Positions 18,879-23,677 of a stretch of DNA of 64,000 bases are shown one piece after another (position 1 is the first letter of the stretch; the number at the start of each line of letters is the position of its first letter). The notes beneath the pieces are model-generated. The model made no database searches and was not told the origin of the DNA. It saw nothing but the letters and a program-made list of their open reading frames with translations. Origin of the DNA: Inhella inkyongensis (GTDB taxonomy: Bacteria; Pseudomonadota; Gammaproteobacteria; Burkholderiales; Burkholderiaceae_C); contig NZ_CP040709.1 in the NCBI RefSeq assembly GCF_005952805.1, positions 806,001 through 870,000 on the forward strand. Direction: 5' to 3'. The position numbers and the translations under genes are program-made.

Positions 18879-19265
18879 TCAGGGGCCCCAGCGCTGCCAG
18901 ATCACCCAGCCCCAGACGGCCGCTGCAAACAGCAGGGTGAACAGCACGGCCGCGCTGCCCAGGTCTTTGGCGCGGCCCAGCAGCTCGCGGCGCTCCAGGC
19001 TGATGGCATCGGCCAGGGCCTCCAGGGCGGAGTTCAGCAGCTCGACCACCCAGATCAGCAGCACCACGCCCACCAGGGCCAACACCTCGGGACCGCTGCG
19101 CCCCACCCAGGGGGCAGCCAACAGCAGGGGCAGGCCCAGGGCCAGTTCCTGGCGGAAGGCGGCTTCGTTGCGCACGGCGGCGCGCAGGCCTTGCAGCGAG
19201 TAGCCCAAGGCCTTCCAGACGCGCAGCAGGCCGCCTCGGCTTTTCATGGACGAGATGTCATTCAT
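18879..19265 (-). CDS. dgkA: Diacylglycerol kinase
   Basis: A protein of about 128 residues, the usual size for prokaryotic DgkA, with three transmembrane helices. The hallmark motifs are RNEAAFRQE near the N-terminus and VVELLNSALEALADAISLE, which contain the active-site glutamates and asparagine. It phosphorylates membrane diacylglycerol to phosphatidic acid. Its start overlaps the end of the histidine kinase gene by eight bases, so it is the third gene of the regulator-kinase operon. EptA, encoded divergently, releases diacylglycerol, which this kinase would recycle. Start at 19247 is an alternative. Confidence 0.93.
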   Translation of the reverse strand: MNDISSMKSRGGLLRVWKALGYSLQGLRAAVRNEAAFRQELALGLPLLLAAPWVGRSGPEVLALVGVVLLIWVVELLNSALEALADAISLERRELLGRAKDLGSAAVLFTLLFAAAVWGWVIWQRWGP

Positions 19266-20553
19266 GCGGGGGTCCCAGTTCGAGGGCGACGGCAAAACCC
19301 TGGGCCTGGGGCGGCAGACGCAGGCGGCCGCCGTGGGCGCGGGTGACCAAAGCGGCCAGGCGCAAGCCCAGGCCCTGGCCGCTGGCGTCGGCGGCAGCGG
19401 CGCTGTCTTGCAGCGCAGCCTCCAGGGCTACGCGCTCGGCCTCGGGCATGCCGGGGCCGTCGTCGCACACCAGCAGGCATTGCTCGCTTGGCCATTCCAG
19501 CCACACCGAGCGCGCGCCATGGCGCTGTGCGTTGTCCAGCAGATTGAGCAGGGCCGCGGCCAGCAGCTCGGGGTCGGCGCTCAAACGCCGGCCCCCTGGG
19601 GTGCTGCGCAGGCTCAGGCCCGGGGTTGGCAGCTCGCTCAGCAACTGCGCGGCGTCCAGCCACTGGCGCTGCACCGCCTGCTCGCTGCGAAACAGCCGCA
19701 GCAGGGCCAGCACCAGGCGTTGCAGGCGGGTGGTGGATTCGCGCAGCAAGCGCAGGCGTGGCAGGGTTTCGGGTGCGGCTTCCTTGAGCGCCACCGCCAG
19801 CTGAGCGTCCATGCCGGCCAGGGGGGTGCGCAGCAAGTGGGCGGCCTGCGGAGCGAAGGCGCGTTCGAAGGCCAGCCGTTCGCTCAAGTGCTCACCCAGG
19901 GTCCGCAGTGCGCGGTGGATCGGCGCCAGTTCGGCGCGTTCGGGCTCGCCCAGCGCATGAGCCAGCTGCTGGGGTGCCACGCCTTCGTGGGCCAGTTGCT
20001 CCAGGCGCTCGGACAGGCGGCCCAAAGGGCGCAGTTCCTGGCGCGCGCGCAGGGCCAGCAGCGGCAGACCCAGCAGGGCCACCCCCAGGCTGGATAGCGC
20101 GACCATCCACATCACCTCTTGCAGCGCCTCGCGGCGCTCGGCACGCGTCTGGCCCACCACCAGCCACAGGCCGCCGGGCTGATCCAGTGGCCTGGCATAA
20201 AGCCGCCAGGGGCTGGCATTGGAAAAGCCCGCCGGCGGACGGGCCTGACCCAGGGCCGGGTAGTCGCCCGGAGATTGCTGCAGCAGTTGGCCCTGGGCAT
20301 CCAGAAGCCACCAGGCGTAACGCAGTTCGCCGCTGGCTTGGGGGCTCGGGGCGCGGACACCCACGGGGCCGAGGTTGGCCAGCGCCGGCGCCAGGCCTTC
20401 GGCACTGGCACGCAAGGCGTCATCCAGCAGTTCGTCTACCTCTTCGTCCACTGCCAGCACGGCGGCTGCGGCCACGGCCAGGGCCCACACCAGGGCGCCC
20501 AGTCCCAGGGTCCAGGCCAGGCCGCGCAGCAGCGAGCGGGGGGCTGCCATCAA
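19258..20553 (-). CDS. Sensor histidine kinase, PmrB/QseC-like
   Basis: A 431-residue two-component kinase: a transmembrane helix at about 12-34, a short periplasmic domain, a second helix at about 147-168, HAMP-like linker, then the kinase core. The phospho-acceptor is H239 in AAHLLRTPLAG; the residue after H is Leu rather than the usual Glu. The N-box is LLNLLDNAQRHG (N341), the G1 box DDGPGMP (364-370), and the G2 box GQGLGL (392-397). The gene overlaps the response regulator by four bases and dgkA by eight. Control of the eptA promoter is inferred from context. Confidence 0.92.
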   Translation of the reverse strand: MMAAPRSLLRGLAWTLGLGALVWALAVAAAAVLAVDEEVDELLDDALRASAEGLAPALANLGPVGVRAPSPQASGELRYAWWLLDAQGQLLQQSPGDYPALGQARPPAGFSNASPWRLYARPLDQPGGLWLVVGQTRAERREALQEVMWMVALSSLGVALLGLPLLALRARQELRPLGRLSERLEQLAHEGVAPQQLAHALGEPERAELAPIHRALRTLGEHLSERLAFERAFAPQAAHLLRTPLAGMDAQLAVALKEAAPETLPRLRLLRESTTRLQRLVLALLRLFRSEQAVQRQWLDAAQLLSELPTPGLSLRSTPGGRRLSADPELLAAALLNLLDNAQRHGARSVWLEWPSEQCLLVCDDGPGMPEAERVALEAALQDSAAAADASGQGLGLRLAALVTRAHGGRLRLPPQAQGFAVALELGPPHE

Positions 20554-21218
20554 GGGGTCTCCAAGGCGCAGCGGTAGCCCAGGCCGCGCAGGGTTTCGAT
20601 GGCGCTGCGGCCGAGCTTGCGGCGCAGGTTGGCGATGTGCACTTCCAGGCTGTTGCTGCTGGCGGGCTGGCCATCAAAGCCCAGGGCCAGGGCCTCCAGG
20701 TCGGCCTTGCTGACCCAGCGCCCGCTGCGCAGCAGCAGGGCTTCCATCAAGGCCCATTCGCGTGCGGTCAATTCGACCTTCTGGCCTTGCCATTGCGCGC
20801 TGCGCGTCTGCAATTGCACTTGGGCGCCGCCTTGCAGGGTCAAGGCGCCTTCGCTGGGCAGCTGGCGCCGCACGCAGGCGCGCAGGCGGGCCGCCAGTTC
20901 CTCCGGGGCGAAGGGTTTGACCAGGTAGTCGTCGGCGCCGCCGTCCAGGCCCTGGATGCGGTCGTTCAGGGTCTCGCGCGCGGTCAACATCAATGCGGGC
21001 GTGCGCAGCCCTTGAGCGCGCCGGGCCTGCAGCCAGTCCAGCCCCGAGCCGTCTGGCAGTTGCCAATCCAGCAGCCAGGCATCGAAGGGCTCTCCGCGCA
21101 GGGCTGCGCTGGCCTGGGCCAGGGTCGGGCACCAGTCCACCACCTGGCCCTCGGCGCGCAGAAAGGCGCGCAGGCCATCGCCCAGCACCCAGTCGTCTTC
21201 CACCAGCAGGATCCGCAT
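20550..21218 (-). CDS. OmpR/PhoB-family response regulator, PmrA/QseB-like
   Basis: A 222-residue regulator with a receiver domain (acidic pocket VEDD at 7-9, phospho-acceptor D51 in LLDWQLPDG, conserved K101 in DDYLVKPF) and a winged-helix DNA-binding domain (VELTAREWALMEALLLRSGR, then NSLEVHIANLRRKLG). OmpR-family regulators bind tandem direct repeats, and the gap just upstream of this gene contains such an array. The array lies between this gene and eptA, so autoregulation and eptA activation are both likely. Confidence 0.93.
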   Translation of the reverse strand: MRILLVEDDWVLGDGLRAFLRAEGQVVDWCPTLAQASAALRGEPFDAWLLDWQLPDGSGLDWLQARRAQGLRTPALMLTARETLNDRIQGLDGGADDYLVKPFAPEELAARLRACVRRQLPSEGALTLQGGAQVQLQTRSAQWQGQKVELTAREWALMEALLLRSGRWVSKADLEALALGFDGQPASSNSLEVHIANLRRKLGRSAIETLRGLGYRCALETP

Positions 21219-21256
21219 GGGTCGGATTCTGCGGGCGGCGGGGCCACTACCGGCGT

Positions 21257-21295
21257 CTTCAGCTTCGCTTCAGCCGGGCTTCAGGCCGGCTTCAG
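21257..21295. promoter_or_regulatory. Four tandem CTTCAG repeats with 11-bp period (candidate PmrA-type operator)
   Basis: CTTCAG occurs at 21257-21262, 21268-21273, 21279-21284 and 21290-21295, each separated by exactly five bases. OmpR/PmrA-family regulators bind direct repeats one helical turn apart; the enteric PmrA box is two YTTAAK hexamers with a 5-bp spacer. Four copies could bind two dimers. The array lies in the 99-bp gap between the response-regulator gene (minus) and eptA (plus). Confidence 0.8.
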
Positions 21296-21317
21296 GCTGC
21301 CCCATTGCAATGACGCC

Positions 21318-22967
21318 ATGTCGTTCCCCTCTGTGTTGTCCTGGCGTCTGCCGGTCTCGCGCTTCCGTGCTGAACTCTCGCCCGAGAGTTTGCTGCTGCT
21401 GTTCTCTTTGTACTGGGCGTTGGCGGCCAACCGCCCGGTTTGGGGTGCCGTGCATCAGGGCCTGGGGGCGGGCCGTCTGCTGGGCGTGGTGGCGCTCCTG
21501 GCATTGATTCACTACCTGGTGTTGGCGCCTTGGATGGCCGTGCGGGTGAGCCGACCCCTGCTGCTGGCCCTGAGTGCGGTGGCGGCTTTGGGCAGCTATT
21601 TCACCCAGAGCTTGGGCGTGGTGCTGGACCCGGCCATGATGCGCAACCTCATGCGCACCGACTGGCGTGAGGCGCGGGAACTGGTGGGGCCAGGGTTGCT
21701 CGGTCATGTCGCTGTGTTGCTGCTGCCGGTGGTGTTGGTGCTGGTCCAAGTTCGGCCGGTACGCTCGCGCACGGGCTGGGCGGGGATGCGTCGGCGTCTG
21801 GGCTGGTGGCTGACGGCGCTGCTGGGTGCCCTGGTCCTGCTGTGGGTGCTATTCCAGCCGCTCTCGGGCCTGATGCGCATGAACAAGGGCCTGCGCTACC
21901 AGATGCTGCCAGTGGCGCCGTTGTGGTCGTTGCCGCGCAGCGTCTGGCAGGACATGAAAGAAGCCCAAGCGCCGCGCCAGCCCATTGGCCTGGATGCCAA
22001 GGCGGGTCCGACCTGGGCGGCAGCGCAAAGGCCGCGCGTGCTGGTGTGGGTGGTGGGCGAAACCGTGCGTGCCGCCAACTGGGGCGCTTACACCCTGCCC
22101 GAAGGAGGGGTGCGAGATACCGCTCCGTTGACCGGGATTGAGCCGCAGTGGCTGCGCTTTCCGCGCATGACGACTTGCGGCACAGATACCGAGACCTCGC
22201 TGCCCTGCATGTTCGCGCCCACCGGCCGACGGGCCTATGACGAGGCGCAGATCCGCGGACAGGAGTCCTTGTTGCATGTGCTGCAGCGGGCCGGCGTGCA
22301 AACGGAGTGGTGGGATGCGCAGTCCGGCTGCAAGGGCGTGTGTGCCGAGTTGCCGCAGCGGCGCCTGGATTGCGGCGAGTTGTGCGACCGCGAGCTCTTC
22401 GCCGGCCTGGCGCCTAAGCTACAGGCGATCCGCCAGAGCGGGCCGGGCACCCATCTGCTGGTGCTGCACATGCTGGGCAACCACGGGCCGTCCTACTACC
22501 GGCGCTACGGATCGGAGCATGCGCGCTTCCAGCCGGCTTGCCAGTCTGATGACCTGGGACGTTGCAGCCAGGCGGAGATACGCAATGCCTACGACAACGC
22601 ATTGCTGGCCACCGATGCGCTGTTGGCCGACGCCCTGAAGCAGCTTCGGGCCTTGCAGGGGGAGATGGATGTGGCGCTGCTCTTCACGCCCGATCACGGT
22701 GAATCCCTGGGCGAGAAGGGGCTCTTTCTGCACGGCATGCCCTTCAGCTTTGCGCCGCGCGAGCAGACCGAAGTGCCGATGCTGTTCTGGCTGAGCGAGG
22801 GGTGGCGCGCCACGCGGGGCTGGTCCGCCGATTGTTTGAGTCGCCTGCCGAAAGGCAGCGCTCCGCAACACGATCATTTATTCCATACCGCACTGAACCT
22901 GCTGGACGTGCGAACCGCCTTGTACGAGCCGACATGGGACCTGCTGCAGCCATGCGCGGCACGCTGA
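21318..22967 (+). CDS. eptA: Phosphoethanolamine--lipid A transferase
   Basis: A 549-residue inner-membrane enzyme of the EptA/MCR family, which moves phosphoethanolamine from phosphatidylethanolamine to lipid A and lowers binding of cationic peptides. About five N-terminal helices precede a periplasmic sulfatase-fold domain. Metal and catalytic residues are visible: E248 in VVGETVRAANWG, nucleophile T291 in CGTDTETSLPCMF, H389 in LGNHGPSYY, D459-H460 in TPDHGESLGE and H472 in LHGMPF. Paired cysteines match the family's disulfides. The start at 21318 follows the regulator array directly. Confidence 0.95.
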   Translation: MSFPSVLSWRLPVSRFRAELSPESLLLLFSLYWALAANRPVWGAVHQGLGAGRLLGVVALLALIHYLVLAPWMAVRVSRPLLLALSAVAALGSYFTQSLGVVLDPAMMRNLMRTDWREARELVGPGLLGHVAVLLLPVVLVLVQVRPVRSRTGWAGMRRRLGWWLTALLGALVLLWVLFQPLSGLMRMNKGLRYQMLPVAPLWSLPRSVWQDMKEAQAPRQPIGLDAKAGPTWAAAQRPRVLVWVVGETVRAANWGAYTLPEGGVRDTAPLTGIEPQWLRFPRMTTCGTDTETSLPCMFAPTGRRAYDEAQIRGQESLLHVLQRAGVQTEWWDAQSGCKGVCAELPQRRLDCGELCDRELFAGLAPKLQAIRQSGPGTHLLVLHMLGNHGPSYYRRYGSEHARFQPACQSDDLGRCSQAEIRNAYDNALLATDALLADALKQLRALQGEMDVALLFTPDHGESLGEKGLFLHGMPFSFAPREQTEVPMLFWLSEGWRATRGWSADCLSRLPKGSAPQHDHLFHTALNLLDVRTALYEPTWDLLQPCAAR

Positions 22968-23677
22968 CGCGCCCGACCTTCTTGTTGGCCTTGGGGCTGG
23001 CCTGCGCGCTGGGTTGGGACTTCAGCGGATTGGACCTGCATGTCGCGCGTCACCTGGGCAGCGCCCAGGGCTTTGCTGCCCAGCATGCGTTTTGGGCCGA
23101 GACCCTGTTGCACGATGGGGTGCGCAAACTGTTGGGCCTGGCCGTCGTGCTGAGCGCGGCGCTGATATGGCGCCGCGAGGGGCGTGCACGCCGGGTTGGC
23201 GCGCTGCTGGCGGCCTTGCTGGCCACCCTGGCGGTCAATGCGCTGAAGGCCACCAGCCTCACCAGCTGTCCGTGGAGCCTGGCCGAGTTCGGCGGTGAGC
23301 CCGGGGTCGAGTGGGTGTCGCACTGGCAGTGGGCGGTGGCCGATGGCGGTCCGGGACACTGCTTTCCCTCGGGCCACTCGGCCGGCGTGTTCGCTCTGTG
23401 GTGCCTGGTGCCGGCCTGGACCGAACAGGCGCGCTGGCGGCGCCTGGCCTGGCTGGCCGTGGGTCTTTTGGGGGCGGCCGCGTCGGCCGCGCAGTGGGCA
23501 CGTGGCGCTCACTTTGTCAGCCACAGCCTGTGGTCGGCCTGGGGCTGCGCAGCCTGGGCTTTTGCGCTTCAGCTCGCCATGGAGAAGGGCTTATGGGCCA
23601 GGAACTCCTTGACCGGCCCGAGTGTGAACCGATTGGGCGACTGGTTGGCCGGCAGCTGGGCGCGGATGCGGGTGTGA
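22952..23677 (+). CDS. PAP2-family membrane phosphatase
   Basis: A protein of about 241 residues with five or six hydrophobic segments and the type 2 phosphatidic acid phosphatase motifs: KATSLTSCPW (C1, with Cys in place of the usual Arg), CFPSGHSAG (C2), and WARGAHFVSHSLWSAW (C3, containing the catalytic His). It overlaps the end of eptA by 16 bases, so the two are coupled. Relatives next to eptA dephosphorylate lipid A or undecaprenyl pyrophosphate; which applies here cannot be read from sequence. ATG 22934 is a second possible start. Confidence 0.87.
   Translation: MRGTLTRPTFLLALGLACALGWDFSGLDLHVARHLGSAQGFAAQHAFWAETLLHDGVRKLLGLAVVLSAALIWRREGRARRVGALLAALLATLAVNALKATSLTSCPWSLAEFGGEPGVEWVSHWQWAVADGGPGHCFPSGHSAGVFALWCLVPAWTEQARWRRLAWLAVGLLGAAASAAQWARGAHFVSHSLWSAWGCAAWAFALQLAMEKGLWARNSLTGPSVNRLGDWLAGSWARMRV

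Follow-up and report, generated by a model that had tools for sequence, protein, structure and literature searches.

The Pho box of PhoB is made up of direct repeats of 11 bp that replace the -35 element. According to published passages on the PmrA box of Klebsiella pneumoniae, two hexamers lie 5 bp apart and are bound head-to-tail (PMC3973317), and the enteric PmrA boxes (Salmonella, K. pneumoniae pbgP) are presented there as 11-bp repeats with head-to-tail binding of an OmpR/PhoB-family regulator (PMC3973317, PMC4660055). The two-component system CarRS of Vibrio vulnificus is described as activating an eptA and dgkA operon together with its own operon (PMC10433830), and the mcr-1-hpap2 and mcr-3-dgkA modules are reported to link a lipid A transferase gene to PAP2 or dgkA (PMC7559476).

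The window, i.e. the whole stretch of 64,000 nucleotides analysed here, contains an array of four direct repeats with the same 11-bp period in the 99-bp gap between the gene of a PmrA-like regulator (20550-21218, minus strand) and the eptA start codon (21318, plus strand), in line with the location given in the preliminary description. The array resembles the Pho box in repeat length and predicted activation class, whereas its half-site and genes differ. Compared with the enteric PmrA box, the window shows CTTCAG instead of CTTAAG, a difference already pointed out, and four half-sites instead of two, and its regulator scores under the PmrA model cut-off. As with CarRS, a two-component system accompanies eptA and a diacylglycerol kinase gene; however, the motif proposed for CarRS in the available text is GACAN6TACA, and dgkA belongs to the eptA operon in V. 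vulnificus, whereas it stands behind the kinase gene in the window (PMC10433830). The PAP2/dgkA linkage of the mcr modules is also shared, the window having both kinds of neighbour, but those modules are described as mobile and the window locus is chromosomal with its own two-component system (PMC7559476). No description of a CTTCAG or TTCAG operator, or of a leaderless eptA, was found among the matches listed from open-licence PubMed Central, where the two listed papers containing CTTCAG deal, judging by their titles, with an acetylome and with plant microRNAs; one may be in print elsewhere.

The repeat array and its neighbouring genes

The features of the locus are as follows.

18879..19295, minus strand: diacylglycerol kinase (DagK); Pfam DAGK_prokar 105.2 bits
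19258..20553, minus strand: sensor histidine kinase; best NCBIfam model PmrB NF008025, 64.7 bits, cut-off of 314 not reached
20550..21218, minus strand: OmpR/PhoB-family response regulator (222 aa), presumed to bind the array; PmrA as best NCBIfam model
21226..21231, minus strand: possible -10 of the regulator gene, CAGAAT; weak, read from the sequence
21257..21262, plus strand: half-site 1, CTTCAG, distal from eptA
21268..21273, plus strand: half-site 2, CTTCAG
21279..21284, plus strand: half-site 3, CTTCAG; forms the -10-proximal pair together with half-site 4
21290..21295, plus strand: half-site 4, CTTCAG; the -10-like hexamer follows after 10 bp
21306..21311, plus strand: TGCAAT, predicted -10 element for eptA; offset of 10 bp kept in relatives
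21318..21320, plus strand: eptA start codon and predicted transcription start, 6 nt after the -10
21318..22967, plus strand: eptA-like phosphoethanolamine-lipid A transferase, 549 aa; Pfam EptA_B_N 96.7 bits, Sulfatase 151.5 bits
22952..23677, plus strand: PAP2-family phosphatase; Pfam PAP2 48 bits (protein taken as 22802-23677)

The four hexamer starts (21257, 21268, 21279 and 21290) can be read directly from the sequence with the 11-bp period previously noted. The "identical 5-bp spacers" of the preliminary description are identical in length but not in sequence (CTTCG, CCGGG, GCCGG). Both strands of the window hold 52 CTTCAG hexamers in total, and all the pairs spaced 7-59 bp apart belong to the array; as calculated from how frequent the hexamer is, the expected number of four-hexamer runs with the 11-bp period is 3.5e-9 for the window and 2.2e-7 for the genome. 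Because pairs with up to two mismatches are not enriched in the window (8 vs 4.85 expected), this improbability rests on the exact run. These data confirmed the four CTTCAG hexamers as a genuine feature that chance does not explain. The array conforms to the PmrA box definition of two direct-repeat hexamers with a 5-bp spacer, here extended to four half-sites; the half-site type given for PmrA, CTTAAG or NTTAAT (PMC3973317, as far as its text was available), was found in none of them, all four reading CTTCAG.

The proteins were assigned from domain and family-model matches. The eptA product carries the EptA_B_N and Sulfatase domains of an EptA-type protein, both above cut-off; it reached 405 bits with the NCBIfam phosphoethanolamine-lipid A transferase model (cut-off 500) and stayed under the curated NCBIfam cut-offs of the EptA and MCR families. 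The PAP2 ATG overlaps the 3' end of eptA, and therefore the two genes probably constitute one operon. The regulator matches Response_reg (79.5 bits) and Trans_reg_C (62.3 bits) above both cut-offs, which places it in the OmpR/PhoB family, and its best model is that of PmrA (NCBIfam NF007928), with 196.8 bits against a cut-off of 330. The DagK gene overlaps the kinase gene and would thus probably come third in the regulator operon. EptA-type enzymes set diacylglycerol free, a substrate that DagK can recycle; besides the regulator and kinase, this operon therefore probably encodes the recycling enzyme for the diacylglycerol from EptA.

Repeats, predicted promoter position and start codon in relatives

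Among 399 genomes of the family, 72 yielded a total of 73 regulator loci (E<=1e-57), and all 73 were inspected. Of these, 35 carry exact arrays of at least two CTTCAG copies no further than 200 bp upstream of the regulator (36 arrays); 25 loci have two copies, 4 have three and 6 have four. All 36 arrays are oriented towards the divergent gene; a reversed pair also occurs close by in L025 and another 895 bp away in L199. When the intergenic region was aligned among relatives, a check suggested in the preliminary description, the repeats turned out to be kept in every locus with a divergent eptA (29/29), always reading towards eptA, 25 of them exact and 4 degenerate (L093, L102, L189 and L191). 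PAP2 is the divergent gene in 9 loci, 6 with CTTCAG arrays and 3 (L031, L210 and L215) with TTAAG-type pairs. The other 35 loci comprise 4 with exact arrays, 6 with degenerate or mixed pairs (L184, L186, L201, L202, L203 and L030), 3 with TTAAG-type pairs (L206, L208 and L209) and 22 in which no pair could be recognised in the 250 bp preceding the regulator; in many of these 22, as judged by eye, another gene lies directly upstream on the regulator's strand. Genus g127 is among the groups that have PAP2 instead of eptA as the gene divergent from the regulator.

The comparison with relatives supports the earlier proposal that direct repeats one turn apart form an operator of the OmpR/PmrA type that serves eptA. 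Half-sites 3 and 4 represent the sole pair kept in nearly all array-bearing relatives, and the array is long enough for the two dimer sites that had been envisaged, a number of dimers that is itself presumed.

The distance between the array and the predicted -10 is also fixed in relatives. A Y....T hexamer begins 10 bp after the last CTTCAG in 31 of the 36 exact arrays, as against at most 8/36 at any of 44 other offsets; this count is the unbiased figure, because the position scoring of sites included the -10 and thus favours phased sites. The more restrictive ...AAT appears at the same offset in 22 of the 36 arrays and in at most 2 at other offsets. Across the 36 arrays, the 10 bases in between are hardly conserved and are followed by YNNaaT, whose fourth base is A in 29 arrays, fifth base A in 25 and sixth base T in 33. 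Departures from Y....T include L022 (AACAAT), L025 (GACACT), L028 (CATAAA) and the inner pair of L100; L089 departs as well, its extra degenerate fourth hexamer, CTTCAT, being accompanied by an 11-bp shift of the -10. The -11 A is usually the best conserved base of a -10, and only 9 of the 36 arrays have an A as second base; the promoter on its own would therefore be very weak, unless the hexamer has been misread.

In 27 of the 29 eptA loci, the first in-frame eptA start codon lies 5-8 nt past the -10, the distance being 6 or 7 nt in 25 loci; in 8 of the 9 PAP2 loci the first start lies 5-9 nt past it. The exceptions are L102 (25 nt), L189 (81 nt) and L215 (34 nt). Since the offset between array and -10 is kept in L102 and L189 despite their distant start codons, the conserved hexamer would be a promoter element and not a ribosome site. 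With the usual distance of about 7 nt from a -10 to the transcription start, the start codon would be the 5' end of the mRNA, which predicts a leaderless eptA messenger. Both the fixed -10 and the probable leaderless mRNA are additions to the preliminary description.

A similar arrangement, CTTAAG-N5-CTTAAT-N10-CACGAT, precedes the EptA homologue at the Salmonella locus L131, so that the window shares with this enteric PmrA box the position fixed 10 bp before a -10-like hexamer; in contrast, the presumed PmrC start lies, by eye, about 30 nt past the -10 there and 6 nt past it in the window. L138, the second of the two enteric EptA loci inspected, has only a TTAAG pair on the other strand and does not share this geometry, and L120 and L125 showed neither a pair nor an EptA match. 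PhoB/PmrA-style activation of eptA is predicted from the spacing.

We consider it likely, from the sequence, that the array is a PmrA-box-like operator through which the linked regulator would activate eptA from this -10, giving a leaderless eptA-PAP2 mRNA. A further step would be that one set of half-sites drives both eptA-PAP2 and the regulator-kinase-DagK operon, in keeping with the earlier idea of control in both directions. Phasing is almost without exception on the eptA side, whereas the distance varies on the regulator side. There, an extended -10 (TGnTAnnnT) was found in 30 of 48 scored loci, compared with 0.5 in shuffles, and 17 of the 30 lie 10-11 or 21-22 bp from the array; however, the other 13 lie at other distances, and the element is absent in 18 of the 48 loci, including the window, whose best candidate, CAGAAT, is 7 nt before the regulator ATG and 25 bp from the array. 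Moreover, the array may not activate both ways because a head-to-tail dimer is directional. Autoregulation of the regulator operon is plausible from these sequences, and we give slightly less than even chances to a true bidirectional switch, which is compatible with activation of eptA by the linked regulator and would extend it.

Spelling and presumed ligand of the proposed operator, and further sites

Six distant orthologs of the regulator (50-55% identity; L031, L206, L208, L209, L210 and L215) have TTAAG-type pairs, four of them, by eye, with a -10-like hexamer at the same position or shifted by 1 bp. In the accessible passages on K. pneumoniae PmrA, the bases are contacted by Asn188, Asn196 and Arg210 and hydrophobic contacts are made by Thr187, Val192 and His195 (PMC4660055), and His193 and His195 were proposed as specificity determinants (PMC3973317). 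The window regulator has Ala (residue 196) at the position of His195 when the L131 helix STNTLEVHIHN is placed on the PmrA numbering. From 175 regulator loci, 63 with a TT(A/C)A pair upstream were retained, and 4 mixed ones were left out of the test; among the unmixed loci, His or Tyr goes with TTAA in 9/9 and other residues go with TTCA in 50/50. On the unrooted tree one change suffices for each trait, spelling and helix residue, and the Fisher p value of 8e-11 is for that reason not a fair measure; the tree shows one correlated split of operator base and helix residue, not a repeated co-change. The enteric TTAAG hints that CTTCAG may be the derived spelling.

With its CTTCAG spelling, the array had been put forward as a possibly lineage-specific operator. 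The spelling does differ from the enteric one, but related TTCA pairs are also found upstream of a separate regulator clade of the same family, with the helix ...EVFIS... (L035, L036, L042, L044 and L038), and at L297 an eptA gene beside a regulator of this clade is preceded by an exact CTTCAG pair in the same phase. A paralogous OmpR-family regulator might therefore be the main ligand of a true operator, or several paralogs might share it, in a genome that gives at least 49 scored regulator matches. We find this unlikely, because exact arrays stand directly upstream of the regulator's own orthologs at the 35 loci reported above, among them the 6 with divergent PAP2, and because the array is absent in G060, a genome of the window's genus with no regulator match at E<=1e-60. 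In G060, eptA (L283; 65% identical) lacks the repeats and has a different kinase-like gene directly upstream in the same direction, which suggests that the original control of eptA was replaced in this genome.

EptA was also searched in 38 regulator-bearing genomes chosen for having no adjacent eptA and in 39 genomes without a regulator ortholog. The former gave 30 eptA loci, one of which, L253 (G250), proved adjacent to the regulator, and 5 of the 30 have an exact CTTCAG pair towards eptA. Four of these five belong to one genus, g127 (G131, G221, G290 and G351), where the regulator lies beside PAP2 and eptA lies on another contig, all four eptA genes being preceded by CTTCAG-N5-CTTCAG-N10-TACAA(G/A); in the fifth, G340, eptA is on the same contig 2 kb away. 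The remaining 25 loci have no exact pair, with degenerate or mixed pairs in L253, L277 and L281. In the genomes without an ortholog, one of 27 eptA loci, the already mentioned L297, has an exact pair.

The genome scan for CTTCAG-N5-CTTCAG that had been recommended gave, with up to one mismatch, 29 matches vs 9 for the reversed-pattern control, including six exact pairs of which three are the array itself. No convincing further target was found in the own genome. When the pair was combined with C/T....T (up to two mismatches), there were 47 matches vs 18 in the control, and a full match was restricted to the array and position 3199777 (L006). The latter site, one of five YTTCA-type matches in the own genome besides the array, has a nearly identical counterpart in a genus relative (G061:C7:38013, L312) and is therefore perhaps coding; the longest ORF overlapping it has no Pfam match. 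Two other exact pairs lie between genes of the isocitrate/isopropylmalate dehydrogenase and semialdehyde dehydrogenase types (L004) and inside a Methyltransf_4 ORF (L005).

An exact triple CTTCAG at 11 bp, scanned for in the 399 genomes with the reversed pattern as control, occurs in 17 genomes, the reversed pattern in 1. By our own count, its 29 overlapping matches correspond to 19 places: 10 adjoin regulator orthologs, 1 precedes an eptA gene without the regulator nearby (L065) and the other 8 lie elsewhere, several being plain tandem repeats. A family 2 glycosyltransferase gene (L076, G290:C20) and an acyltransferase gene (L070, G058) were discarded as targets because the array faces away from them. 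At L055 (G222:C69:12965-13003), four CTTCAG with differing spacers and a CGCCAT 10 bp on are flanked by MarR-type and peptidase S15 genes; that genome gave no match to the regulator at E<=1e-57. L062, L068 and L058 are perfect or near-perfect 11-bp tandem repeats containing CTTCAG, have no regulator or eptA by tblastn, and look like chance resemblances.

Two further explanations concern the nature of the array. It might repress eptA by covering the promoter, whose -10 region it abuts; we judge this very improbable, since the array ends 10 bp short of the -10 and does not cover it, the window sequence shows no -35-like hexamer upstream, the same geometry precedes the Salmonella EptA homologue, and PmrA is an activator in Salmonella. 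A neutral short tandem repeat arising by slippage, as the plain repeats with identical spacers and no regulator at L058, L062 and L068 (and similarly L069 and L070) might suggest, can practically be dismissed, because the three spacers here differ, relatives keep the hexamers and their spacing but not the spacer letters, and the phase to the -10 is fixed.

Proposed mechanism and meaning

Taken together, the array is a sound, well-conserved regulatory element which, judged by its sequence, would be a PmrA-box variant in class II position. According to the activation model preferred here, the kinase would phosphorylate the adjoining response regulator, and the phosphorylated form would bind consecutive CTTCAG half-sites as head-to-tail dimers. 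The dimer on the half-sites nearest eptA would replace a -35 element and recruit RNA polymerase to TGCAAT, and the second dimer site upstream would add affinity or cooperativity. Transcription would then begin at about the A of the eptA ATG.

As to the meaning for the family, we give roughly even chances to a wider reading, in which its lipid A modification is switched on by a PmrA-type operator with a spelling of its own, acting on leaderless targets (eptA and PAP2) and with the number of half-sites, from two to four, setting the threshold. As part of this joint reading, TTCAG would be recognised by a helix in which the position of the PmrA His is taken by a small residue or by Phe. If this is true, the fixed distance between operator and start codon would place activation and translation start in one 40-bp cassette, which could also serve eptA genes on other contigs. 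The resulting grammar, CTTCAG-N5-CTTCAG-N10-YNNNNT-N6..7-start, offers a means of finding eptA-type targets, and leaderless mRNAs would be predicted for an envelope-modification enzyme. The TTCAG and TTAAG operators with their matching regulators provide a natural pair for learning how PmrA-type helices select their target sites. The bacteria concerned form a large, environmental group, and the literature searched says little about how their intrinsic lipid A modification is regulated.
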